Of a stretch of DNA of 12,190 nt, positions 1,054-11,915 are shown in pieces (position 1 is the stretch's first letter; each line of letters opens with the position of its first letter). The stretch is from NCBI GenBank assembly GCA_020442095.1, contig JAGRKY010000448.1, forward strand, positions 1 to 12,190, read 5' to 3'. The position numbers and the translations under genes were made by a program. Source of the stretch: Bauldia sp. (GTDB taxonomy: Bacteria > Pseudomonadota > Alphaproteobacteria > Rhizobiales > Kaistiaceae). The notes below the pieces were generated by a model that ran no database searches, had not been told where the DNA came from, and was given only the letters and a program-made list of their open reading frames with translations.

Positions 1054-2109
1054 GTGGCGAAGGAAAAGGCAGAGGGCGCTGGCGCTCGACACAAGGCGCT
1101 TTTCGGCATCGATGAGGCATGGCTGGCGGGGCATGTCGAAGACGCGCTCGAACCCGACCTTCCCGTCGTCGATCCGCATCATCACCTTTGGGACCGCGAG
1201 GCACCCTATCTCCTCAATGACTATCTCGCCGACATCAACACCGGGCACAACATCCGTGCCTCGGTGTTCGTTCAGTGTGACGCGATGTATCGCGCCTATG
1301 GCGATCCTGATCTGGCTCCCGTCGGCGAGACCGAGTTCGTCAATGGCATCGCGGCGATGAGCGCAAGCGGCGAATACGGGCCGACGCGCGTCTGCGCCGG
1401 CATCGTGGGATTCGCCGAGCTGCGACTTGGCGAACGGGTCGACACTGTTCTGGAAGCGCACCTCCGCGCCGCCGGCGATCGCTTCAAGGGCATCCGCGGC
1501 CGTTCGGTCTGGGATCCGGATCCGACGATCAAGGGTTCTTCGCAGGATTTCCCCGAAGGCCTGCTACTCGACGCGAAGTTTCGCAGCGGTTATGCGCGGC
1601 TTGCCCGCTACGGCCTTTCCTTCGACTCCTGGCTGTTTCATCCCCAGATACCCGAGCTGGCCGACCTTGCCGGAGCGTTCCCCGATACGCCGGTCATCCT
1701 CGACCATATCGGCGCGCCGCTTGCGGTCGGCGCCTATTCTGGCAAGCGCGACGAGGTCTTTTTCGACTGGAAGCGAAACCTGACGGAACTGGCCCGCCGT
1801 CCGAACGTCAGCGTCAAGCTCGGAGCCCTGGCGATGCACCTCTTCGGGTTCGATCTCGACCCGGCACATCGGCCGACGCCCCTCCCCTCCGAGCAAATCG
1901 CGGACCTGTGGCGTCCCTACATCGAGACCTGCATCGAGATCTTCGGCGTCGGACGGTGCATGTTCGAAAGCAACTTCCCGGTCGACAAGCGCGCCGTCAG
2001 CTACGTCACGCTGTGGAACGCCTTCAAGCGCATCGCCGCCGGCTATTCGGCCGACGAGAAGGCCGCCCTCTTCTGCGAAAATGCCCGCAGGGTCTACCGG
2101 CTGGCCTAG
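1054..2109 (+). CDS. Amidohydrolase family 2 / COG3618 metal-dependent hydrolase (lactonase-like)
   Basis: A 351-residue cytoplasmic TIM-barrel hydrolase of the amidohydrolase_2 family. The metal-binding HxH lies in VVDPHHHLWD (His42-His44) at the end of strand 1. ILDHIGAP (about 215-222) supplies a later active-site histidine, and FESNFPVD (304-311) is the typical C-terminal strand-8 motif with the catalytic aspartate. COG3618 members include sugar lactonases and lactonases or decarboxylases of aromatic catabolism, so opening of a lactone or similar ring is plausible, but the substrate is unknown. The gene starts with GTG behind a strong AAGGAGAG. Its stop lies only 21 bp from the stop of the convergent ATPase gene, so it is not part of that operon, though it may serve the same catabolic route. 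Confidence 0.85.
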   Translation: MAKEKAEGAGARHKALFGIDEAWLAGHVEDALEPDLPVVDPHHHLWDREAPYLLNDYLADINTGHNIRASVFVQCDAMYRAYGDPDLAPVGETEFVNGIAAMSASGEYGPTRVCAGIVGFAELRLGERVDTVLEAHLRAAGDRFKGIRGRSVWDPDPTIKGSSQDFPEGLLLDAKFRSGYARLARYGLSFDSWLFHPQIPELADLAGAFPDTPVILDHIGAPLAVGAYSGKRDEVFFDWKRNLTELARRPNVSVKLGALAMHLFGFDLDPAHRPTPLPSEQIADLWRPYIETCIEIFGVGRCMFESNFPVDKRAVSYVTLWNAFKRIAAGYSADEKAALFCENARRVYRLA

Positions 2110-2130
2110 CCCTGGAGAATGCTCTCTCGT

Positions 2131-3639
2131 TCAGGCAAGATAGCACTGCTCGGCAATGCGGTTTTCGGTGAGATCCTCGCCGGTGAGTTCGCGCGCGATG
2201 CGGCCATGCCTGAAGATGAGCACGCGATGGCAGAGATGCGCGAGCTCGTCATATTCCGATGAGGCGATCACCACGGCCGCCCCTGATGCCGCCACCTCGG
2301 CGATGACTTTAAGGATCTGCTGCCGGGAGCCGATGTCGACGCCCTGGGTTGGCTCGTGCAGGAGCAGGACCGCCGGGTTGGTCTGCAGCCACTTTCCCAG
2401 AAGCGCCTTCTGCTGATTGCCTCCGGACAGTGTCGCGAGAAGGCGGTCCGGCGCGGCCGGGCGCACATCAAAGCGTTCCAGCAATTCCTGTACGGCCGAA
2501 CGCTCGGCCCGATGCCTCAGGAAGCCATTTCTGACATACCGCGACCCACTCGCCATCGCGACGTTCTCAAGCAGGGTCGCCTTGGGAATGCCGCTCTGGC
2601 GATGGCGGTCAGCGGGCAGGAAAGCGACCTTCGCGGCAATCGCATGGTCGGGCGTGAGCTCGGCCAAGGACTTTTCCGCGACCGACACCGAGCCGCCACC
2701 GGCCTTTGTCGCACCAAACAACAGATAGGGAATCTCGTCGTGCCCCATGCCGAGCAGCCCGGTGAGCCCGATGATCTCGCCTTCATGGGCGGCGAAAGAC
2801 ACGCCACGGGAAATCGGACCGGATAGATTTTCCACGGCAAGCGCCGGGCGCCCGCGCGCGACACTCCGTTTCGGATACAGGGAATCAATCTCACGGCCGA
2901 GCATCAAAGCGATCAGCTCCCGCTCGCTGGTCTCCTTCGTGACCACCGTGTCGATCAGGCGTCCGTCCCGCAGGATGGACGTACGATCGGCGATGTCGAG
3001 AATTTCGTCCAGTCGGTGGCTGACAAAGACCACCGCGGATCCGCGCCGTGCGACGTTCCTAATCGCCGCGAATATCTTCCTGACCGAAGGTGCCGGCAGG
3101 AAGGCCGTCGGCTCGTCGAGGATGAGAACCTCGCCGCGCTCGTGGTCCATCTCCTGAATCGCCCGCATGAAGCCGATCAGCGCACGCTCGGCAGGCGGCA
3201 CATTGCGGACCAGGGTGTCGGGATCGAGATCGAGCTGCATCTCGGCGAGGGTCGCGGCTGCCGCCTTCCGTTCGTCGGCCCAGAGCAACCGGCCGTAGTA
3301 CGTAGTCTGGAATCGACCAATCCGGAGGTTTTCCAGAACGGTCATCGTCCGGACGACGCCGACGTCCTGATGAAGGAAGCGAAGTCCGAGCCGGCTCGAC
3401 TGTCCCGGCCTCAATGGCAGGGGTACCGGCTCGCCGCGTATCAGCACCTCACCGCTGTCGGGCTGATGATAGCCCGACAGGATCTTGATGATCGTCGATT
3501 TGCCCGAGCCATTCTGCCCAATCAGGGCATGGACCTCTCCAGGTCGAATATCGAGATCGACGGACGAGAGCACCCGCACTCCCGCGAAGCTCTTGACGAG
3601 CCCGCGCAGTTCCAGGAGCGGGGCGCCCTTGTCCGGCAT
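2131..3639 (-). CDS. CUT2 (ribose-type) ABC importer, double ATPase subunit
   Basis: A 502-residue tandem ATPase of the RbsA/XylG type, last gene of the - strand operon, 23 bp after the binding protein. The N-terminal half has Walker A GQNGSGKST (41-49), Q-loop Gln91, Walker B VLILDEPT (171-178) and H-loop His208, but its signature motif is lost (VPPAER, 147-152, where LSxGQ is expected). The C-terminal half has a degenerate Walker A (GLTGLLGMG, 291-299), an intact signature LSGGNQQK (404-411), a Walker B with His428 replacing the usual Asp (LLLHEPT), and Ser in place of the H-loop His. ATP should therefore be hydrolysed at only one composite site: Walker A/B of half 1 with the signature of half 2. 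The second-half changes are common in this family; the lost first signature is more notable. The ribosome-binding site is weak, suggesting coupling to the upstream gene. Confidence 0.93.
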   Translation of the reverse strand: MPDKGAPLLELRGLVKSFAGVRVLSSVDLDIRPGEVHALIGQNGSGKSTIIKILSGYHQPDSGEVLIRGEPVPLPLRPGQSSRLGLRFLHQDVGVVRTMTVLENLRIGRFQTTYYGRLLWADERKAAAATLAEMQLDLDPDTLVRNVPPAERALIGFMRAIQEMDHERGEVLILDEPTAFLPAPSVRKIFAAIRNVARRGSAVVFVSHRLDEILDIADRTSILRDGRLIDTVVTKETSERELIALMLGREIDSLYPKRSVARGRPALAVENLSGPISRGVSFAAHEGEIIGLTGLLGMGHDEIPYLLFGATKAGGGSVSVAEKSLAELTPDHAIAAKVAFLPADRHRQSGIPKATLLENVAMASGSRYVRNGFLRHRAERSAVQELLERFDVRPAAPDRLLATLSGGNQQKALLGKWLQTNPAVLLLHEPTQGVDIGSRQQILKVIAEVAASGAAVVIASSEYDELAHLCHRVLIFRHGRIARELTGEDLTENRIAEQCYLA

Positions 3640-3662
3640 ATCAGATCGACTTGACCCGGGCC

Positions 3663-4790
3663 TTACTGGAGGCCCCAGAGCTTGCTGTATTCCGCGGCAT
3701 AGTCTCCGCCAAACAGCTCGTTCTCATCGTTCGAGATGTCCTTGAGATTCTCCTGAACCAAGAGGCGAAGCGGGATCTGCTCGTCGACCGCGGTCATGCC
3801 GAGCATGCCGCGGGCGACTTCGTCCAGCGCGGCCCATCCGAGCCAGACGCTCGGCTCGCCGACGTCACCAACCTGGATGTTGCCTTCCCGGATCCAGTCG
3901 AGGTTACTCGGCACGGCGTCCGCGCCAATCACTTCGATCGGGTTGCTGAAGTTCGCGGCCTTGATCGCCGGGACAACGTAGATGCCCTGTGCGTCGTAGG
4001 TGGGCAGCACCATGTTGATGTCAGGACTGCGGCGAAGCAGGGTCTGAACCTGCTGGCCGAGCTTGACGCCAAGGTTCGCGACCTGGGTGTCCTCGACCGT
4101 CACGACGCAGTCCGGGCACATTGCCTTGAAGGCGCTCTGCATGCCTTCGACGCGCGACACCTCGCCCGGGAACTCGTTGTCGCCGAGAATGAGGACGTTC
4201 GCCTTGCCCTCGGTCCGGGCGATCGCATAGGCCGCCTGCAGCTCGCCGGAATGAACGAAGGAGATGCTGACATGCGCGAAGGTGCCCGGAACCAGCGGCG
4301 CCTCCTTGTCCGCGGTCACCGCGTCAACCACCGGGATGCCGGCCTCGAGCGCGTCGTTCATCGGGCCCTTCATCAGCTCGGGCGAAGCACCGACCGTCAC
4401 GATGCCATCGGCATGCTGGCTCACCGCCTGGGCGAGGCCCCGGTTCCATTCGGAAACGTTGCCCTTGCCGTCGATCAGCGACGTCTCGATACCCGCCTTC
4501 GCGGCCGCCTCTTCGACGCCGTGAGCGATGGTCGCGACAAATGGTACCGCCATGGTCGAGGTGATGATCCAGATGTGCTTGCCCTTGAGCTTGCCGATGT
4601 CGAAGCCTTCGCCCGGCGCGACGAAGGTCGGCATCTTCATGGCCTCGTCCGCCATCGCCCTGGCGTCGGCAACCCCGTCGGCCTGCGCGAAGGATACCTG
4701 ACCCGCCAGAAGAACGGCGGTCGATCCGGCGATTGCCACCGCCGCGGACAGGCGACGCCACGTATCCGCACCACTCTGCATAGTCTTCAT
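3663..4790 (-). CDS. CUT2 ABC importer periplasmic substrate-binding protein
   Basis: A 375-residue secreted binding protein of the periplasmic-binding-protein 4 (ribose-type) family. The N-terminus has basic residues (WRR, 11-13), a hydrophobic run to about residue 30 and a likely Sec cleavage at FAQA-DG (after Ala37). The mature part shows the usual order: IWIITSTMAVPF first strand, a DGIVTVGASPELM segment, GIPVVDAVTAD, a VLILGDNEFPG hinge region and a NMVLPTYDAQGIYVVPAIK stretch. The CPDC pair could form a disulfide. GGGAGA lies 7 nt before the ATG. The gene follows the permease after an 84-bp gap with a hairpin, which may allow separate or higher expression. Its ligand cannot be deduced; the neighbouring enzymes suggest something other than a plain sugar, perhaps a nitrogen-containing ring compound. 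Confidence 0.93.
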   Translation of the reverse strand: MKTMQSGADTWRRLSAAVAIAGSTAVLLAGQVSFAQADGVADARAMADEAMKMPTFVAPGEGFDIGKLKGKHIWIITSTMAVPFVATIAHGVEEAAAKAGIETSLIDGKGNVSEWNRGLAQAVSQHADGIVTVGASPELMKGPMNDALEAGIPVVDAVTADKEAPLVPGTFAHVSISFVHSGELQAAYAIARTEGKANVLILGDNEFPGEVSRVEGMQSAFKAMCPDCVVTVEDTQVANLGVKLGQQVQTLLRRSPDINMVLPTYDAQGIYVVPAIKAANFSNPIEVIGADAVPSNLDWIREGNIQVGDVGEPSVWLGWAALDEVARGMLGMTAVDEQIPLRLLVQENLKDISNDENELFGGDYAAEYSKLWGLQ

Positions 4791-4822
4791 GTCCAGTCTC
4801 CCATTGGTCGGTGGTCTATTGC

Positions 4823-4841
4823 GGCCGATCGGCGATCGGCC
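4823..4841 (-). repeat. GC-rich hairpin between permease and binding-protein genes
   Basis: GGCCGATC and GATCGGCC form perfect 8-bp arms around a 3-nt loop. It is the only sizeable gap inside the operon (4791-4874). No T-tract follows on the - strand, so a complete terminator is unlikely. Such structures between transporter genes can act as 3' stabilisers or partial attenuators that set the binding protein level; that role is inferred here. Confidence 0.6.
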
Positions 4842-4874
4842 TCACATGCAATTCCCTTGTGGCCGCGCTCTCCC

Positions 4875-5891
4875 TCATGCGGCCTGGTCGCGCACGACGA
4901 AGCGCGCGAAGGTCACCGCGATCAGCAGGGCGAAGCCGTTGAACAGTTCCTGCACCCACGACGACGTTCCGAGCAGTTCGAGCCCGATGACGCCGGTCAC
5001 CAGCAGATAGAGAGCGACGACCGTGCCCCAGGCGTTGAATCGCCCGGGCTTGATCGTCGCTGCGCCAAGGAAGGCGGCCGCATAAGCAGGCAGGAGGAAG
5101 CTCGGGCCGACCGAAGGATCGGCAGCACCGAGCTGGCCGGCGGTGAGAATGCCCGCCGCCGCGCTGATGGCGCCGGAGCCGATGAAGGCCGCGAAGCGCA
5201 GACGGTCGACCGGAAGCCCGGTGAGGCGCGCCGCCTCGCGGCCCTCACCGACGAAGAATAGGTGACGGCCGGTGGGCGTGTGTTCGTAGAGATACCAGAG
5301 CGCGATCGCGACGCTGAAGCCGATATAGGCTGGCACCGCCAGGCCGAAGATCTGATGCTGCACGAAATCGCTCAGCGGTTCGGCGACGGTGTTGAGGATC
5401 TGACCGCCCGACACCGCAAGGGTCACGCCGGTCAGGATCGTCGAGGTGCCCAGCGTCCCGATGAAGGCATTGACGCCCATCCGGACGACGAAGAAGCCGT
5501 TGATTGCACCGGCAATCACACCGACGAGGATCGTCACGACGACCACCAGGACGAGCGGAAAATGGAGCGAGCCGGTGAAATAAGCGGTCAGGACCGCTCC
5601 GCAGCCCAGCATCGATCCGATCGACAGATCGAATTCGCCAGTCGTCAGCGGCAGCGTCAGACCGAGGGCCAGAATCATCAGCACCGCCTGCGAACTGACG
5701 ATGGTGCGGAAGTTGCCGAGGGTGAAGAAGGTGTTGGGGAGCAGGACAGAGAAGACGACCACCAGCAGGACGAGCGCGAAGACGACCGCGTAGCGGTAGG
5801 CGAACATCCGTATCCTGCTCGCCCGCAGCCTTGCCGCCTCCGACGCGTCTTCGGGCTCGCTGCGCACCGTATCCCGGGTCGTCTCGTTCAT
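4875..5891 (-). CDS. CUT2 (ribose-type) ABC importer permease
   Basis: A 338-residue inner-membrane permease of the RbsC-like family (BPD_transp_2). After a charged cytoplasmic tail of about 30 residues it has hydrophobic segments at about 34-51, 64-83, 92-107, 111-133, 143-161, 183-201, 233-252, 264-280, 288-308 and 317-333. Family motifs are GEFDLSIGS (85-93), NAFIGTLGTS (141-150) and the coupling loop around GREAARLTGLPVDRLRF (217-233). The frame stays open 66 codons upstream, but ATG at 5891 is preferred: it overlaps the amidase stop as ATGA and gives the normal family length, and the extension is not family-like. Translation is probably coupled to the amidase. No second permease is present, so a homodimer is likely. 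Confidence 0.92.
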   Translation of the reverse strand: MNETTRDTVRSEPEDASEAARLRASRIRMFAYRYAVVFALVLLVVVFSVLLPNTFFTLGNFRTIVSSQAVLMILALGLTLPLTTGEFDLSIGSMLGCGAVLTAYFTGSLHFPLVLVVVVTILVGVIAGAINGFFVVRMGVNAFIGTLGTSTILTGVTLAVSGGQILNTVAEPLSDFVQHQIFGLAVPAYIGFSVAIALWYLYEHTPTGRHLFFVGEGREAARLTGLPVDRLRFAAFIGSGAISAAAGILTAGQLGAADPSVGPSFLLPAYAAAFLGAATIKPGRFNAWGTVVALYLLVTGVIGLELLGTSSWVQELFNGFALLIAVTFARFVVRDQAA

Positions 5892-6601
5892 GCCGGATCG
5901 CCCCGATTGTCCGGCCGGGCGCCGATCCGGGAGATGACCTCTTGCGACGTGACCACGTCTGCAAACTGCCGGTCCATGTCGAAAAGACTGATCGCATGCG
6001 AAATCGGCAGCCGGTCGAAGACGGCATCGGCGGGGACGATGGTGCGGTAGTTGTAGGACGTCGAGTCCATGACGGTCGCCCGCACGCAATTACTGGTCGA
6101 CCCGCCGAGGACGACCAGGGTGTCGACGCGACGGTCGATCAGGTAGCCAAGCAGCGGCGTTCCATGGAAAGCGCTCGGCTTCTTCTTGACGAAGACGATA
6201 TCGCCCGGCCGGGGACCGACCTCCGGCAGCAGCTCGGCGCCTTCCGTCCCTTCGAGGCACCAGTCATCGCGTTGCATGAAGGTGCGCTTGCGGGCATAGA
6301 CGCCAATGTCGCCGCCCTCCGGATCGAGGGCGAAGCGCGTCAGGAAGACCGGGACACCGGCGGCGCGCGCCGCATCAAGGATCGCCGCCGCCCTGTCGAC
6401 CGCCGCCCAGCCAACAGCGCCGCACGACGACGGGAAACGCCCCTCGCTCGTCACACCACGCTCGCCGACCATGTAGCGCTGGCAGTCGATGGCGACGACG
6501 GCCGGCCTGGAGCCGAAACCCATGCGCTTGCCGAAGCCGCCGCGCGCAAGGACCGCACGATCGGCATCCGTCAGGAAGGAGTCCCAGACCTTCTCGCTCA
6601 T
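5888..6601 (-). CDS. Isochorismatase-family cysteine amidase
   Basis: A 237-residue cysteine hydrolase. The triad can be placed: Asp39 in AIDCQ, a lysine in VKKKPSAF (Lys139 by alignment to the family pattern) and nucleophile Cys172 in GGSTSNCVRATVMDS. GGSTSN before the cysteine corresponds to the family's cis-peptide segment. The N-terminal 30 residues and this motif resemble N-carbamoylsarcosine amidohydrolase, maleamate amidohydrolase (NicF), RutB and biuret hydrolase, all amide or carbamoyl hydrolases, more than true isochorismatases. It overlaps the ring hydrolase by 4 bases (ATGA) upstream and the permease by 4 bases downstream. The likely role is ammonia release from the ring-opened half-amide or carbamoyl product of its neighbour. 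The exact substrate is unknown. Confidence 0.88.
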   Translation of the reverse strand: MSEKVWDSFLTDADRAVLARGGFGKRMGFGSRPAVVAIDCQRYMVGERGVTSEGRFPSSCGAVGWAAVDRAAAILDAARAAGVPVFLTRFALDPEGGDIGVYARKRTFMQRDDWCLEGTEGAELLPEVGPRPGDIVFVKKKPSAFHGTPLLGYLIDRRVDTLVVLGGSTSNCVRATVMDSTSYNYRTIVPADAVFDRLPISHAISLFDMDRQFADVVTSQEVISRIGARPDNRGDPA

Positions 6602-7545
6602 CTGCCCTGCCCCACGGTGGCCGTATCCCGATGCTCGGCGTGCCAGTGCCGCGCGACATCGACCCGGCGGCAGATCCAGACGCGGTCGTGGCCGAGGATG
6701 TGGTCGAGGAAACCGGCGAGAGCCCGCACACGCGCCGGCCGGCCGACAATCCGCGGGTGCAAGCCGATCGACATCAGGCCCGGCGCGTCGGCACCCTCTT
6801 CGTAAAGCTGGTCGAAGGTCGCCGTGAGATAGGTCTCGAAATCGAGCGCGCTGCCGAACCCGGCGGGCAACGTGAACTTCACGTCGTTGGTATCCATCGT
6901 GTACGGCACGACCAGGTGCTTCCGGCCGGACACCTCCACCCAGTAGGGCAGTTCGTCGGCATAGGAATCCGAGTCGTAGAGAAAGCCGCCTTCCTCGACC
7001 AGCAGGCGGCGGGTCGCCTCGCTCGGGCCGTATCGGCAGTACCAGCCGACCGGGCGTTCCCCGGTCGTCCGCGCGATCGAGGCGACGGCCATCGCGATCC
7101 GTTCGCGCTCATCCGCCTCGCTGAGGCGAAACTGCTCTTCCCATCGCCAGCCATGGCAGCACACGTCGTATCCGGCGCGAGCGATCGCCTCCGCGACGCG
7201 CGGGTTCCGTTCAAGCGCCAGCGCTGCGCCGAAGATCGTCACCGGCACCTGCCGCTCGCCGAAGATCCGGAAGAGTCGCCAGATTCCGACGCGACTGCCG
7301 AACTCGTACATTGTCTCGAAGGCAAGATCGCGTGACGTCGGGGGAACCCGACCGCCCGGGGCCTCGGCGAGACCGAGTTCCGTCCGTCCGTCGCCATCGG
7401 CGATAGTGTATTCGGATCCCTCCTCGTAGTTGATCGCGAACTGAACGGCGATCCGGGCGCCTCCGGGCCAGCGCGGATCAGGCCGGCTGTCGGCGTAGCC
7501 AACGAGGTCGCGGGGATAGTCCTTGCCGACGGCGGGCGGCTTCAT
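6598..7545 (-). CDS. PuuE-type polysaccharide deacetylase-fold cyclic amide hydrolase (allantoinase/imidase-like)
   Basis: A 315-residue protein whose N-terminus (YPRDLVGY, then RWPGGARIAVQFAINYEEGSE) and core (YEFGSRVGIWR, 80-90) match the PuuE allantoinase type recruited from polysaccharide deacetylases. The classical NodB metal motifs are altered as in that group: the DD motif is NYEEG (39-43), the HxxxH motif is HGWRW (131-135) with the second His lost, and a late His lies in GLHPRIVG (262-269). No signal peptide is visible, so it acts in the cytoplasm on a small cyclic amide, not on a polysaccharide. From memory, bacterial cyclic-imide hydrolases of this fold are also known. No purine genes are visible nearby, so an imide or hydantoin-like ring is as likely as allantoin. 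ATGA overlap with the CoA-transferase; AGAAGGG precedes the start. Confidence 0.87.
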   Translation of the reverse strand: MKPPAVGKDYPRDLVGYADSRPDPRWPGGARIAVQFAINYEEGSEYTIADGDGRTELGLAEAPGGRVPPTSRDLAFETMYEFGSRVGIWRLFRIFGERQVPVTIFGAALALERNPRVAEAIARAGYDVCCHGWRWEEQFRLSEADERERIAMAVASIARTTGERPVGWYCRYGPSEATRRLLVEEGGFLYDSDSYADELPYWVEVSGRKHLVVPYTMDTNDVKFTLPAGFGSALDFETYLTATFDQLYEEGADAPGLMSIGLHPRIVGRPARVRALAGFLDHILGHDRVWICRRVDVARHWHAEHRDTATVGQGR

Positions 7546-8783
7546 GAGCGATCACCCTTCTCACGGGCGGCCGCCGCATCGACGGGCAGCCGCCCCGCGG
7601 CACGAAGTTCGTCGAGGATCTCCTCGCGGTCCTGATCGATCCGCGCCCCCGCCCGCCAGACCGACCCAGGCGTCCGGGAGAGCCGCGGAAAGACGTTCTG
7701 CATCCGCACCGGGCCGAGATCCTCATCCTCGACCGTCGTGATCGATTGTCTCGCGATGAATTGAGGGTCGCTGAAAATCTGCTCGATGTCGTAGATCGGT
7801 GCGATCGCCGCTTCGACCTTTTCGAAGGTCTCAACGACTTCGTCGAGATCGTGTTCGGCGATCCATCCCCCGACGATGGCGTCGATCTCCTCGACGTGGC
7901 GAACGCGATCGATGTTGCTCTGGAAACGCGGATCGAGGGCGGCCTCTTCACCGCCGGTCAGTTCGAGCACGCGGCGCACGATGCTCGGCGAGGCGGCGGA
8001 CAGCGCGACCCAGCGCCCGTCGCGCGTGCGATAGGCGTTGCGTGGCGCATTGTTGACCGAGCGGTTGCCGTTGCGCTTCTGGATGACGCCGAGCTGATCG
8101 AAGATGATCGGCTGCGGCCCGAGGACGGCGAAGATCGGCTCATAGATGGCGAGGTCTATGAACTGGCCTTTTCCGCTCCCTCGAACGTCCCGCTCGTAAA
8201 TCGCGAACATCGTCGCGAAGCAGCCGAAATAGGCGGCGATGCCGTCGGCGAGCCCGAATGGCGGCAGGGTCGGCGGTCCGTCCGCCTCGCCGGTGATATG
8301 CGCGAAGCCGGACATCGCCTCGGCGAGGGTGCCGAAGCCCGCTCGCCGCCGGTAGGGCCCGGTCTGGCCGAAACCGGTGACGCGCACCATCACCAGTCGC
8401 GGGTTGATCGCCGAGAGCTCCTCCCAGCCGAGGCCCCAGCCCTCCAACGTACCGGTGCGGAAGTTCTCGACGAGCACGTCCGCGTCGGCAACGAGCGCCT
8501 TGAACACCTCCGCGTCGTCGGCCGCCTTGAGATCGAGAGCGATGCAGCGCTTGTTGCGCGCGCTCGTCTTCCACCACAGCGGATGGCCATCCTTTTTCGC
8601 GCCCATGTTGCGGAGCGGATCGCCATTCGGGTGCTCGACCTTGACGACGTCGGCGCCGAAGTCCCCCATCAGGGTGGTGATCATCGGCCCGGCAAACAAC
8701 GTCGCGCAGTCGATGACGCGGAGCCCTTCGATAGGACCGCCGTGCTTCCGCCCTGAACCCGGAACGCCTTTCGTTTCAGACAT
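7542..8783 (-). CDS. Class III CoA-transferase (CaiB/BaiF family)
   Basis: A 413-residue CoA-transferase of the formyl-CoA transferase fold. It has the family N-terminus (PIEGLRVIDCATLFAGPM, 17-34), GADVVKVEHPNGDP (43-55), VLVENFRTGTLEGWGL (103-118) and TGFGQTGPY (136-144). The catalytic Asp is expected at Asp180 in PPFGLADGIAA, the residue that forms the acyl-aspartyl intermediate. These enzymes move CoA from a donor such as succinyl-CoA to a carboxylic acid, here probably the (hydroxy)dicarboxylate made by the ring and amide hydrolases; acceptor and donor are inferred. The start ATG lies inside the lyase 3' end (8-nt overlap ATGTCTGA) behind AAGGG, and the stop overlaps the next gene. Pairing with a CitE-type lyase is familiar from malyl-CoA and citramalyl-CoA pathways. 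Confidence 0.92.
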   Translation of the reverse strand: MSETKGVPGSGRKHGGPIEGLRVIDCATLFAGPMITTLMGDFGADVVKVEHPNGDPLRNMGAKKDGHPLWWKTSARNKRCIALDLKAADDAEVFKALVADADVLVENFRTGTLEGWGLGWEELSAINPRLVMVRVTGFGQTGPYRRRAGFGTLAEAMSGFAHITGEADGPPTLPPFGLADGIAAYFGCFATMFAIYERDVRGSGKGQFIDLAIYEPIFAVLGPQPIIFDQLGVIQKRNGNRSVNNAPRNAYRTRDGRWVALSAASPSIVRRVLELTGGEEAALDPRFQSNIDRVRHVEEIDAIVGGWIAEHDLDEVVETFEKVEAAIAPIYDIEQIFSDPQFIARQSITTVEDEDLGPVRMQNVFPRLSRTPGSVWRAGARIDQDREEILDELRAAGRLPVDAAAAREKGDRS

Positions 8784-9675
8784 CGACCCTTGCCCGCTCC
8801 GCCACTCTCAGAATCTCGCGCGCCCGCGCGATGAAGGGGCCGTCGGCCATCACCCCGTCCACAGTGAACGCTCCGACCCCGCTCGACTCCATTTCGTCCG
8901 CCACCGAGACGATCCTGCGGGCGCGGCTGATCTCGCCGTCGGTCGGCATGAACACGTCGTTGGCGACAGCGATCTGCGAGGGGTGGACGCAGCTCTTCCC
9001 GGCGAGGCCGAGAGCCCGCGCGGCCTCAGCTTCCAGCCTGAACCCGGCCAGGTCGCTGATGCCGACGAATGCCCCATCGTAAGCCGGAACTCCGACTTCC
9101 GCAGCGGCGAGCCGGCAGGCAAGGCGGACGTGGTGCAGCGTGGCTTGGGTCCGCCCGATGCCGAGCGGCTCGAAGAGATCGCCGAAGCCGAGCTGCAGCC
9201 CCGCAACCCGCTCGCTGGCGCCGGCGAGGAGGTACGCATTCCGGAGCCCGCGGGGTGTTTCGATATTGACGAGAAGGCCGATCGGAGTCTCCACCCCGCG
9301 TTCCCTCTCGAGGCTTTCGAGCCGTTCGGCGGCCAAACGAATCTCGTCCTCACCCTCGACCTTGGGGAGGTTGACCAGATCGAGACCCGGCCGCACCACG
9401 GCATGGAGATCGGCCTCGAACAGTCCGCCGCCGACACTATTCACCCGAACGATCGTCGTTTGTGCGCCGGAGGTCGGGCGGGCCGCGATCTCGGCCCCGA
9501 CCAGCCGTCGCGCCTCGTCCTTGCGCTCGGCAACAACCGCGTCCTCAAGATCGAAGGATATAGCGTCGGCTGCCGAACGGCGTGCCTTTTCGAAGAGCTC
9601 CGGTCGGGAGCCCGGAACGAAAAGCTTGCTGCGCATGAGCACGGTCCGCACGCCGATAGACCCCTTTTCGACCAT
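8776..9675 (-). CDS. CitE/HpcH-type CoA-ester lyase (malyl/citramalyl-CoA lyase-like)
   Basis: A 299-residue TIM-barrel lyase of the HpcH/HpaI/CitE family, first gene of the operon. Motifs are RSKLFVPGSRPELF (15-28), FDLEDAV (41-47), Arg77 in IVRVN, LPKVE (103-107), the Mg-binding Glu139 in NIETPRG and Asp166 in FGDLF, and GKSCVHPSQI (227-236). Family members cleave a 3-hydroxyacyl-CoA into an acyl-CoA and a 2-oxoacid, for example acetyl-CoA with glyoxylate or pyruvate. The start is uncertain. ATG at 9675 lacks a clear ribosome-binding site. GTG at 9651 (residue 9) sits 9 nt after AAAAGGGG (9661-9668) and would give a 291-residue protein beginning close to the conserved RSKLFVPG. ATG at 9636 also has no good site. 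Expression should come from the divergent region shared with the LysR gene. Confidence 0.9.
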   Translation of the reverse strand: MVEKGSIGVRTVLMRSKLFVPGSRPELFEKARRSAADAISFDLEDAVVAERKDEARRLVGAEIAARPTSGAQTTIVRVNSVGGGLFEADLHAVVRPGLDLVNLPKVEGEDEIRLAAERLESLERERGVETPIGLLVNIETPRGLRNAYLLAGASERVAGLQLGFGDLFEPLGIGRTQATLHHVRLACRLAAAEVGVPAYDGAFVGISDLAGFRLEAEAARALGLAGKSCVHPSQIAVANDVFMPTDGEISRARRIVSVADEMESSGVGAFTVDGVMADGPFIARAREILRVAERARVDV

Positions 9676-9740
9676 AGGCGCTCGTTATCGCAACGATGAC
9701 CACCACGGTCGGCGTCCATCGAGAATTCCGCCCTATCTAA

Positions 9741-9784
9741 GACCCTCCTGCGGCGTTCGACCAATATTTCATTGCTGGAGGGTC
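9741..9784. repeat. Inverted repeat GACCCTCC-N28-GGAGGGTC
   Basis: Perfect 8-bp arms (9741-9748 and 9777-9784) lie 36 bp apart centre to centre, with a smaller dyad CAAT-N5-ATTG (9762-9774) between them. The arms abut or overlap the tentative promoters of both divergent genes. They could be paired regulator sites or form a hairpin. The role is unknown. Confidence 0.5.
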
Positions 9785-9799
9785 ATTCCAAAATGGTAT
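9785..9799. promoter_or_regulatory. Candidate LysR/NAC-type operator
   Basis: ATTCCAAAATGGTAT contains a T-N11-A LysR box (9786-9798) in an imperfect dyad (TTCCA/TGGTA). It also fits the enterobacterial NAC consensus as I recall it, ATA-N6-TnGTAT, with one mismatch on this strand; the reverse complement also fits with one mismatch. It overlaps the tentative -10 of the LysR gene, so it could serve autorepression. Confidence 0.45.
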
Positions 9800-9836
9800 A
9801 GAATAGGCGTGTCGTGGAGCCAGACGGATCGTCGCG

Positions 9837-10766
9837 GTGGATTTACGCAAGCTTCGCTATTTCGCAGGCGTTGTTGAAGCGAAAAGCATCAGCCGTGCTG
9901 CCCATGCCCTCAACGTCGCACAGCCAGCGCTGAGCAAGAGCATCCAGGCTCTGGAACTCGATCTCGGGACACCGCTTCTGCAGCGCTCCCGACAGGGCGT
10001 CACAACGACCGAAGCCGGTGACCGCCTTTATGACCATTGCCAGATCCTCTTCAAGCAGGTCGAACGGGCCAGATCCGACATCCGCCGTTCGGTCGGCGAC
10101 CCTTCGGGCCGGGTCGTGGTCGGGATGCCACACAGCCTCGCCTCCGTGATCGCGCTCCCCCTGCTCCAGGCCATGACGAAACGCTATCCCGAGGTCCGCT
10201 TGGAACTCCGGCAGGACCAGAGCCACTTCCTTGCCGTCGACCTCAGGGCAAACAAGTTGGACTTCGCGGTCATCGCCAGCCCCCGCTCGCGTTCCGGCCT
10301 TTTCTGCTTTCCGCTCCTCGTCGAGGAACTGATGTTCATTACAAGTCGGAATGACGGCCCCAATGATTCGAAACCCACCATCTCCTTCGAGGACGCATCG
10401 CGCCGTCAATTCGTCCTGCCCTCCATGGGTAACGGATTGCGCGCCTGTGCAGAGGGCCATTTCCGGGCCCGGTCGCTGCCGCTCGAGGTCAAGTACGAGA
10501 TCGATGCGATCGCTCTGATGACGCAGTGTGTCCTTGCCGGCCTCGGCGCTTCCCTGTTGCCTGGCGGCTGTCTCGAGCGCGATGCCAACTACGCCCGCAC
10601 GAGGGTAAGGGCTTTTGCCGAAGGCGGCTGTCACCGGGGGATCGTTCTGTGCCACGCAGAAGAAGCAACTATGTCGCCAGCGGCAGCCTGCACCATCTCA
10701 ATGATCGAGGAGATCGTGAAGGAAATGGTCAACAAGGGCTCATGGCTGGGCGCCCGACTTCCTTGA
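9837..10766 (+). CDS. LysR family transcriptional regulator, Nac-like
   Basis: A 309-residue regulator starting with GTG (MDLRKLRYF). The winged HTH spans about 1-60 (SISRAAHALNVAQPALSKSI, then a GTPLLQRSRQGVTTTEAG wing). A linker helix follows and the effector-binding domain runs from about 92 (GRVVVGMPHSLASVIALPLL) to the end. The N-terminal half reads much like the nitrogen assimilation control protein Nac (LRRLKYF, VAQPALS, RQGVTPTEAG-type wing, SITMPLLQA-type segment). Divergent placement marks it as the likely regulator of the seven-gene operon, with an intermediate or the imported compound as possible co-inducer. The C-terminus looks intact although recombinase debris begins within about 50 bp. 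The ribosome-binding site is poor, so low expression is likely. Family is certain; the Nac link is by eye only. Confidence 0.92.
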   Translation: MDLRKLRYFAGVVEAKSISRAAHALNVAQPALSKSIQALELDLGTPLLQRSRQGVTTTEAGDRLYDHCQILFKQVERARSDIRRSVGDPSGRVVVGMPHSLASVIALPLLQAMTKRYPEVRLELRQDQSHFLAVDLRANKLDFAVIASPRSRSGLFCFPLLVEELMFITSRNDGPNDSKPTISFEDASRRQFVLPSMGNGLRACAEGHFRARSLPLEVKYEIDAIALMTQCVLAGLGASLLPGGCLERDANYARTRVRAFAEGGCHRGIVLCHAEEATMSPAAACTISMIEEIVKEMVNKGSWLGARLP

Positions 10767-10812: not shown

Positions 10813-11915
10813 CGCTATGTCGAGATTGGATCGGTGGCCGATCTAAAGCGATGGCTAGATGCCGAAGGAGTCGTGTCCAAACGGCGTTGCTTCAAGGATG
10901 GGAAGGTTGTTGGCGGAGTGCCCATGAGCCGCGGAGCGATCTATCAGATCCTTCGCAACCGACTTTACCGCGGCGAGATCGAACATCGCGGCGAAATCCA
11001 AACGGGCAAACACCAGCCGATCATAGATCAGGATCTCTGGCAATCGGTGCAAGCCCGACTAACCGAACAGAGCGGTCGTAAGAGGAAGGCGCGCGCAACT
11101 GGGATGGACCCCGCCCTCCTCGCCGGGCGAGCGTTCGATGACCGCGGCAATCGGCTGACGCCGACCTATGCGATCAAAGCCGGACGCCGTTACCGCTACT
11201 ACGTCTCGGCTCCACTTGTCCGGGGCGCAGCGCAAAACGGCATTCGTGTTCCCGCACCGGACTTGGAATGTCTCGTGACGGACGAAGTCGCAACCCGGCT
11301 TCGGGATCCACTATGGGTAACCGGACGATTTGCGGTGAACCTCGGCATCGCGGGGCTGCGACGCATTATCGATGCCGCTTCGCAACTCGGCCATTCTATC
11401 GGGCACGCCTCCGATGCCAACAAGCGACTGCTAATCGAACGCCTGGTCGTTGGCGAAAGCGAGGTTTCCATCCGACTCCATGCTACCGCCCTCGCTGAAG
11501 TTCTTTCGAGTGCCGCCGATGGTTCAGCGCTCACACTGAGAAGTGAGAACCCGATTGACATCGTGATCCCGGCTCGGGCCATGCGACGCGGCAAGCAGGT
11601 TCGCCTGGTGATCGGTACCGCGGAGGGCGATCATGTACCGCCTGATCCCTCGCTGCTCGCCTTGGTCTCAGATGCCTATCGCTGGTTCGATGATCTGCGC
11701 CGCGGCGGCGCAGGACCATCACTGAGATCGCTAAGCGAGAGCGCATCCAGGCTTCATATGTGAGCCGCATGATCGGCCTCGCCTTCCTAGCTCCCGACAT
11801 CGTTGAAATGATCCTCACTGGTCGCCAGCCACCATCGCTCACCGCAGAGCGATTGAAAGCCACGCGGCCCCTCCCTCAGAATTGGGACGAGCAGCGGGCG
11901 TTGTTACTAAGCTGA
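10813..11915 (+). pseudogene. Large serine recombinase, 5'-truncated and frameshifted
   Basis: Homology starts abruptly at about 10813 with RYVEIGSVADLKRWLDAEG, the beginning of the Recombinase domain. SRGAIYQILRNRLYRGEI, HQPIIDQDLW and the LLAGRAFDDRGNRLTPTYA and RRYRYYVSAPLVRG segments of the alphaproteobacterial subgroup follow. The N-terminal resolvase domain with the catalytic serine is absent, so it cannot recombine DNA. GTG at 10834 could start a 309-residue frame ending at 11763. However, the family's C-terminal tail continues in another frame from 11718 (ITEIAKRERIQASYV, then IGLAFLAPDIVEMIL and GRQPPSLTAERL) to TGA at 11913-11915, implying a one-base loss (or two-base gain) near 11716-11718. 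The upstream frame is open but unlike the family, so the breakpoint lies between the LysR stop (10766) and 10812. Confidence 0.82.

Follow-up and report, generated by a model that had tools for sequence, protein, structure and literature searches.

The window analysed here, the whole 12,190-nucleotide stretch of contig JAGRKY010000448.1 from Bauldia sp., carries a cluster of transport and enzyme genes that may serve the catabolism of a small cyclic imide. A preliminary description had placed seven tightly packed genes at 2131–9675. These coordinates are correct, the minus strand carries all seven, and the family name given to each agrees with its Pfam assignment (PF00005, PF13407, PF02653, PF00857, PF01522, PF02515 and PF03328). 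Successive overlaps of 4, 4, 4 and 8 bp join the permease gene and the enzyme genes, and the importer genes are separated by 23 and 84 bp. The features of the cluster are given below; related loci in other genomes carry L numbers.

1054–2109, plus strand: PF04909 amidohydrolase (AmHyd2; PF04909 E 3e-38), convergent with the operon; likely a lactonase- or hydratase-type step
2131–3639, minus strand: ATPase of a CUT2-type ATP-binding cassette (ABC) importer (PF00005)
3663–4790, minus strand: CUT2 substrate-binding protein (PF13407; best NCBIfam model at most 29 bits)
4875–5891, minus strand: CUT2 permease (PF02653); 4-bp overlap with the amidase gene
5888–6601, minus strand: isochorismatase-family amidase (PF00857), half-amidase or decarbamoylase
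6598–7545, minus strand: putative PuuE-like cyclic amide/imide hydrolase (PF01522; TIGR03212, 393.2 bits)
7542–8783, minus strand: class III (CaiB) coenzyme A (CoA)-transferase (PF02515, E 8e-116)
8776–9675, minus strand: CitE-like lyase (PF03328), predicted to act on a 3-hydroxy-3-carboxyacyl-CoA
9741–9789, no strand: putative regulator site in the divergent intergenic region; block conserved in L104, L001 and L002
9837–10766, plus strand: LysR-type regulator (PF03466/PF00126), divergent from CitE

All nine genes, from 1054 to 10766, recur in the same order and on the same strands at L104 (genome G359, taken as Kaistia algarum); of the 397 genomes of the order of Bosea that were searched, this one has the nine-gene block. 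The identities to the L104 proteins are 84% for the PF04909 hydrolase, 84% for the ATPase, 82% for the binding protein, 89% for the permease, 82% for the amidase, 84% for PuuE, 85% for CaiB, 73% for CitE and 77% for LysR. Between the window and L104, the nonsynonymous divergence of the nine genes (dN, 0.06–0.20) is well below the synonymous divergence (dS, 0.77–1.28): all of them are under purifying selection. The synteny stops outside 1054–10766, since the M24 peptidase and recombinase genes of the window have no match in L104. Because the PF04909 and LysR genes lie inside the syntenic block, we take them to be parts of the unit, which is thus larger than first described: the seven genes are real, but the PF04909 hydrolase and the LysR gene had been overlooked. 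The synteny with L104, the excess of dS over dN and the recurrence of the enzyme core elsewhere make the block more than a chance arrangement.

The LysR protein has relatives of 67–68% identity beside the enzyme core in Bosea (L001) and Limobrevibacterium (L002). In the window its gene and that of CitE diverge from a region of 161 bp, which shares the conserved block with L104, L001 and L002; the last two carry a GGGCATTCC/GGAATGCCC palindrome. This block is probably the LysR binding site. The intergenic region of the window also holds an 11-nt inverted repeat, which was not found in L104. A promoter/terminator scan of 9600–9900 found none.

Contigs were scanned using 28 aligned PuuE relatives, giving 555 related stretches, of which the best 80 loci were kept. 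Where PuuE is 66–77% identical to the window protein, 14 of 16 loci have the amidase and CitE within 7 kb, and 13 of 16 have CaiB; where it is 55–63% identical, the amidase and CitE are each found within this distance in 0 of 64 loci, and CaiB in 3 of 64. The Fisher p values for this co-occurrence ignore shared ancestry. The two exceptions, L009 (from a metagenome bin) and L011, belong to genomes that carry an amidase (61–64%) and a CitE (51–52%) at another site, and the L015 locus terminates inside its amidase gene. Genes at non-annotated loci were called with a codon-usage script trained mainly on the window; it performed poorly on several (L007–L011, L113–L116), and for these tblastn or plain open reading frames were used instead.

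Between clusters there is variation in gene order, in the regulator (LysR or GntR) and in the CoA-transferase paralogue, which is either 69–85% or about 30% identical. The importer varies as well: it is of the CUT2 or the branched-chain-amino-acid type beside PuuE, and TctC or TRAP in amidase clusters that do not contain PuuE. Because order, regulator, paralogue and importer all differ, the kept enzyme set is not merely an inherited block. A search for conserved co-occurrence of all seven families had been proposed as a check; the four enzymes do occur together, but the core is not always accompanied by the CUT2 importer. The amidase is rare: matches at E 1e-65 or better were found in 3 of 397, 3 of 399 and 6 of 385 genomes in the groups around Bosea, Variovorax and Limobrevibacterium, respectively, centres included. 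The gene set as a whole is also rare, yet distant bacteria share it.

The PuuE-like protein scores under the curated cut-off of 424.6 bits for the allantoinase family TIGR03212. It carries the motif GWYCR, found in nearly all proteins of its lineage and close sisters, where the solved PuuE proteins (3cl6, 1z7a) and the urate-linked PuuE of L083 have GWYTGR; since one of the two patterns used in the search was GWYCR[YF]G[PA], the frequency of GWYCR among the 80 loci is selected. In the PuuE tree, for which 64 of 114 rows were used (most of the sister set and five of the duplicate short loci L087–L103 were dropped), 16 core proteins group with those of L009 and L011 with a support of 89/96, below the tool's mark of 95/80. 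The L108 protein, whose gene adjoins an amidase and CitE, is placed apart, while L105, L110 and L111 contribute a separate group (100/100).

The family name and the 56% identity to the L083 protein would allow ordinary allantoin catabolism, part of purine breakdown, standing by chance beside a CoA-acid module. We reject this as the main reading and hold it to be extremely improbable, given the score below cut-off, the divergent motif, the overlapping genes and the repeated pairing of PuuE with CitE. In addition, UraH, UraD, PuuD and ureidoglycolate lyase have no match within 7 kb of PuuE, whether in the window or in the other core rows, in contrast to L083, where urate-pathway genes stand beside PuuE. 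The preliminary description had named allantoin or ureide activity within a complete purine pathway as evidence against its proposal; none of these four families has a match in the window.

Two further observations concern PuuE proteins elsewhere. Adjacent pairs of divergent PuuE-like genes (39–46%) occur near the main PuuE in L052, L060 and L078, possibly encoding a heteromeric relative. In L044, L062 and L066, PuuE and ureidoglycolate lyase lie inside a conserved stretch that by eye resembles transketolase, glyceraldehyde-3-phosphate dehydrogenase and aldolase, with a 58–59% relative of the window PF04909 gene a few kilobases away.

The window amidase contains the Asp-Lys-Cys catalytic set of the isochorismatase-type amide hydrolases (the NicF/BiuH/carbamoylsarcosine group), these residues being described as catalytic in the BiuH/NicF family in PMC5806882. 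D39 is present in 16 of 16 rows and K139 and C172 each in 15 of 15, and R174 is likewise invariant in the core rows that cover it. In the amidase tree, built without the amidase rows of L111, L015 and the duplicate short loci L087–L103, the protein falls in a group of 21 rows (97/91), 20 of them CitE-linked; the CITE label of the second isochorismatases of L113 and L116 was assigned by locus and is an artefact. Inside this group nest the amidases of L084, L107, L113 and L116 (59–64%), which have CitE nearby and, in the place of PuuE, an AtzE-type amidase scoring sub-threshold; CaiB was seen in L084 and L107. L003 has both sets, that with PuuE and that with the amidase. These four loci, and the asparaginase-like gene nearby in L113 and L116, speak for a reading in which open-chain amides, diamides or formamides of a dicarboxylate are both the substrates and the importer cargo and no ring is involved. 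We consider this unlikely, as RutA lies near the related CUT2 importers of L130 and L133 and known PuuE-type enzymes open small rings (PMC3084791, PMC9304392).

The amidase relatives keep varied company. That of L114 (57%) nests in the CitE-linked clade (97/97); its neighbour, on the opposite strand, is a member of the PEP-mutase/isocitrate-lyase family (PF13714; best NCBIfam model methylisocitrate lyase, sub-threshold), beyond which lies an amidase gene. Among plasmid matches to the amidase, 13 of the 25 listed were viewed, of which 12 were annotated; one of these is L084 and the other 11 are distant (37–42%), with lyase or hydratase neighbours in six. L085 and L119 have a PEP-mutase-family protein and MmgE/PrpD, and L123 has two MmgE/PrpD proteins and a dihydroorotase-like protein. 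L118 and L124 combine a dihydroorotase-like or amidohydrolase-family protein with the isochorismatase, an aconitase and a PEP-mutase-family lyase. An analogous set on a conjugative plasmid of Acidiphilium (L126) comprises an isochorismatase, an HMGL-like protein, a CoA transferase and a hydantoinase/oxoprolinase pair, the second gene of which resembles caprolactamase beta (221 of 1000 bits).

What recurs in these sets is the amidase together with an enzyme that would open a ring or amide and others that would split a hydroxylated di- or tricarboxylate. Because the amidase relatives accompany several unrelated C-C lyases or hydratases, their neighbourhoods point to a substituted malate as the amidase product. 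Parallels are the aconitase-type dimethylmaleate hydratase and the dimethylmalate lyase of the PEP-mutase superfamily. As a separate matter, the set in L118 and L124 could be a parallel route that might treat alkylmaleimides. A nicotinate pathway was also considered for the window and rejected: L125 is a nicotinate cluster with an amidase relative at the maleamate (NicF) position, whereas no nicotinate-pathway family is present among the window genes.

The CitE-like protein has the PF03328 fold, and its best solved relatives are 1sgj, deposited as a citrate lyase beta subunit, and the malyl-CoA/beta-methylmalyl-CoA lyases 5ugr and 4l9y. R77, E139 and D166, which correspond in kind to the Arg, Glu and Asp active-site residues of CitE-type acyl-CoA lyases, are present in 16 of 16 rows. 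An assignment as the citrate lyase beta subunit proper was rejected on a TIGR01588 score of 201 bits against a cut-off of 443.4 and on there being no CitD or CitF partner among the window genes. The CaiB protein has the features of a class III CoA-transferase; D180, the Asp that is catalytic in this class, is present in 15 of 15 rows, and the best NCBIfam model is succinate–glutarate CoA-transferase, sub-threshold at 240 of 750 bits.

Three of the 20 listed CitE relatives were viewed (54–55% identical), and all three loci carry carboxylate transport of the 2-hydroxycarboxylate or TctC type, two of them CaiB and two PF04909. L127 has LysR, CitE, TctC and CaiB; L128 has LysR, a 2-hydroxycarboxylate transporter, CitE, CaiB and PF04909; L129, cut at the record end, has LysR, PF04909, CitE and TctC. 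Because these PuuE-free modules carry carboxylate transport genes, CitE and CaiB probably run in the direction of breakdown.

The link of the PF04909 hydrolase to such modules is mixed. BLAST at E 1e-4 matched AmHyd2 to neither of the PF04909 proteins of L128 and L129, and the three AmHyd2 relatives viewed, of 12 listed, lie in differing settings: one (L131) with CaiB and a citryl-CoA lyase, one in a different oxidoreductase set and one in a TctABC/SMP-30 set. In L131 the protein 58% identical to AmHyd2 accompanies a DASS symporter, CaiB, a citryl-CoA lyase of the citrate-synthase family (475.7 bits, cut-off 261) and LysR, and the Vineibacter cluster L016 encodes a 59% relative. The family includes a hydratase and, among the NCBIfam relatives of this protein, lactonases; it is for this reason only that we regard it as a candidate hydratase.

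The importer has the double ATPase, PF02653 permease and PF13407 binding protein of a CUT2 system. It scores far below the cut-offs of the sugar-specific NCBIfam equivalogs (for the ATPase, among the best 25 of 188 families). CUT2 systems usually carry sugars, the PDB matches are mostly named sugar-binding proteins, and the enzyme core occurs elsewhere without CUT2, so that a sugar importer might merely stand beside an unrelated acid-amide operon. The evidence makes this very unlikely. The transporter is kept in L104, and its permease gene overlaps that of the amidase. The ATPase tree joins the proteins of the window and L104 to seven PuuE- or RutA-linked systems (100/99) in a clade that excludes Rbs, Als, Ytf and Lsr of E. 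coli. Also excluded are L135, a gluconolactonase locus, and L134, where a CUT2 system adjoins a distant PuuE-like gene (33%), a case at odds with any simple rule. The same grouping has weak support in the binding-protein tree (84/87), and no weight was given to the permease tree because it does not resolve the window branch. The E. coli rows form long end branches in all three trees; a meeting of long branches was flagged in the binding-protein and permease trees, and in that of the ATPase an odd composition of Als.

L130, L133, L134 and L135 alone were chosen by binding-protein similarity, as the four highest bit scores of 15 listed. L130 and L133 are two of the seven systems in the ATPase clade, and their RutA proteins score 604.7 and 622.5 bits (curated cut-off 498.3). 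In L024 and L027 a CUT2 importer directly precedes PuuE (59–60%) and ureidoglycolate lyase, and the L105 importer lies about 6 kb from the enzyme genes; as L024, L027, L105, L110 and L111 were fetched via PuuE or the amidase, their pairing with CUT2 is partly selected. Because the ATPase groups with PuuE- and RutA-linked systems, the importer ligand is, by gene neighbourhood, less likely to be a sugar than a cyclic amide, imide or ureide. The preliminary description had named an ordinary-sugar binding protein as evidence against its proposal; the ATPase grouping points away from sugar, by neighbourhood only. As observations in their own right, the importers near RutA in L130 and L133 may take up uracil-like rings, unlike the usual permease, and that of L024 and L027 may carry allantoin or a ureide.

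Taken together, the nine genes may form a catabolic unit for a small cyclic imide, a reading drawn from sequence comparison to which we give an even chance. The CUT2 importer would take up the ring, which the PuuE-like enzyme, judged by its family, would open to a half-amide. The isochorismatase-type amidase, by family and catalytic residues, would then release ammonia and a dicarboxylate. CaiB, with its catalytic residues in place, is predicted to transfer CoA onto this acid, and the CitE-like lyase, likewise equipped, to cleave the CoA ester to an acyl-CoA and a 2-oxo acid. The PF04909 hydrolase might contribute a lactone or hydration step, and the LysR protein is the likely regulator. The comparative evidence favours this order of ring opening, ammonia release, CoA activation and C-C cleavage, as the preliminary description had it, but the malate proposed there as an end product is unlikely. 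An acid of the substituted-malate type, at the level of citramalate or an alkylmalate, appears more plausible than malate, and the corresponding imide is preferred over hydroxysuccinimide because malate would need no CoA activation.

Several observations weigh against this imide reading, and some of them favour its main rival. In that rival the PuuE-like enzyme opens a substituted hydantoin such as 5-hydroxyhydantoin, the isochorismatase removes the carbamoyl group to leave a 2-oxo acid such as glyoxylate, and CitE and CaiB assimilate it, glyoxylate and an acyl-CoA giving a malyl-type CoA and then the free acid. Ureidoglycolate lyase is present in 35 of the 67 gene-called sister PuuE loci, those nearest to the window lineage. 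The best solved relatives of the amidase are N-carbamoylsarcosine amidohydrolases (26st, 121 bits; 1nba, 99 bits), whereas 3ot4, which shares its sequence with 3uao, identified as the maleamate amidohydrolase NicF in PMC5806882, scores 86 bits. The CUT2 relatives of L024 and L027, whose genes immediately precede those of PuuE and ureidoglycolate lyase, also fit the ureide route.

Other points also count against the imide unit. CaiB was not found beside the amidase and CitE in L108, L113 and L116, and the PuuE/amidase clusters of L105, L110 and L111 contain no CitE or CaiB. A short-chain dehydrogenase/reductase (SDR) gene present in seven examined clusters is absent from that of the window. Five of the 11 distant amidase regions (L117, L120, L121, L122 and L125) show no such lyase or hydratase among their neighbours; L120 carries CaiB and a thiolase, and L117 an RraA-family gene. 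Finally, no hydratase family was recognised in the window, and one would be needed if the imide were unsaturated.

The ureide route nevertheless seems rather unlikely to us. The carboxylate transport genes of the PuuE-free CitE modules suggest breakdown of an imported acid, a direction that therefore weighs against assimilation; the PEP-mutase-family, HMGL-like and aconitase/PrpD neighbours of the amidase relatives fit an acid that is cleaved; and ureidoglycolate lyase has no match near PuuE in the window. Because the nearest relatives often accompany that lyase, the ancestral PuuE substrate was probably a ureide, and the window lineage seems, on the evidence of gene neighbourhoods, to have left the ureide setting and gained a different downstream set. 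The naming of a PuuE-type ring hydrolase in the preliminary description holds as to family, but the link of its nearest lineage with ureidoglycolate lyase had been overlooked, and this link keeps the ureide reading alive.

The imide unit might also be one instance of a wider modular scheme, which we think decidedly improbable. Interchangeable openers (PuuE, AtzE-type, dihydroorotase-like and caprolactamase/HyuB-like) would all feed one isochorismatase-type amidase, and interchangeable lyases (CaiB with CitE, HMGL-like, or of the PEP-mutase family) would split an alkylmalate-type acid. The feedstock could be maleimides from the breakdown of chlorophyll, heme and bilins, with soil bacteria recycling tetrapyrrole nitrogen. 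Senescent leaves and lake sediments are cited in PMC7318184 as sources of maleimides and hematinic acid; the leaf data of that study itself record hematinic acid but not maleimides. Both are possible feedstocks.

Two further genes lie at the edges of the window:

3–473: M24 peptidase gene (PF00557), 3' part, cut by the window edge
10834–11763: serine-recombinase fragment (Recombinase domain, PF07508)

The recombinase open reading frame contains PF07508 only, without a resolvase domain, and by eye an apparent C-terminal tail lies in another frame, the whole spanning 10834–11914; we regard it as the remnant of a decayed mobile gene adjoining the operon. Near DNA matches in the plasmid collection never covered more than 2% of the window, so that a plasmid origin is not supported, and none of 30 pattern matches checked for viral relatives was a true relative.

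The preliminary description had called the combination unfamiliar though its families are known, and we found no description of it in the open PMC literature searched, a body that leaves most subscription papers and all bioRxiv preprints outside. Each enzyme family is known; what appears to be undescribed is the recurrent, rare module with swappable ends. If the imide reading is true, these genes would allow bacteria to exploit a cyclic imide completely, taking it up and converting it as far as acyl-CoA; the literature searched gave no more than individual imidases and a single pathway, in a fungus. Database names would then need correcting, since relatives close to these proteins are now called 'allantoinase PuuE', 'putative urate catabolism protein' and 'ribose transport protein', and the module could help to locate degraders of imide pesticides or tetrapyrrole fragments.

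Comparison with known systems reveals partial likenesses to several. The Rut pyrimidine pathway also uses an isochorismatase-family amidase after ring opening (PMC5806882), and two CUT2 relatives lie near RutA, but the window has no RutA and a different ring opener and fate. The window protein aligns over its full length with the PuuE allantoinases 3cl6 and 1z7a of TIGR03212 and differs from them in score, motif and surroundings, as described above. NicF and N-carbamoylsarcosine amidohydrolase share with the amidase its family, the Asp-Lys-Cys set and a CVR.T motif, whereas the amidase is 41.6% identical to the NicF-position protein of L125 and stands outside any nicotinate-cluster context. 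Routes that join a CoA-transferase to a CitE-type enzyme are known for the malyl-CoA, beta-methylmalyl-CoA and citramalyl-CoA lyases (SmtAB/Mcl of Chloroflexus, RipC of itaconate catabolism); there, as proposed here, a CoA-transferase precedes a 3-hydroxy-3-carboxyacyl-CoA lyase. In the window, unlike these routes, a ring hydrolase and an amidase would supply the pair, and the scores are far below the NCBIfam equivalog cut-offs.

The closest published precedent found is the imidase HxnM and the amidase HxnN of the hxn nicotinate pathway of A. nidulans, HxnN belonging to an amidase family other than that of the window enzyme. As far as the available text of PMC9304392 goes, this pathway differs in being fungal, in acting on a six-membered ring and in being described with no mention of a CoA-transferase or C-C lyase. 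HxnM is 64% identical to an imidase of P. putida (PMC9304392). The likeness lies in the chemistry: a dehydrogenase makes a hydroxylated imide, 3-hydroxypiperidine-2,6-dione, whose ring is opened by HxnM, a cyclic imidase with a relationship to the PuuE family, and HxnN then frees ammonia from the amide to leave a 2-hydroxydicarboxylate, 2-hydroxyglutarate (PMC9304392).

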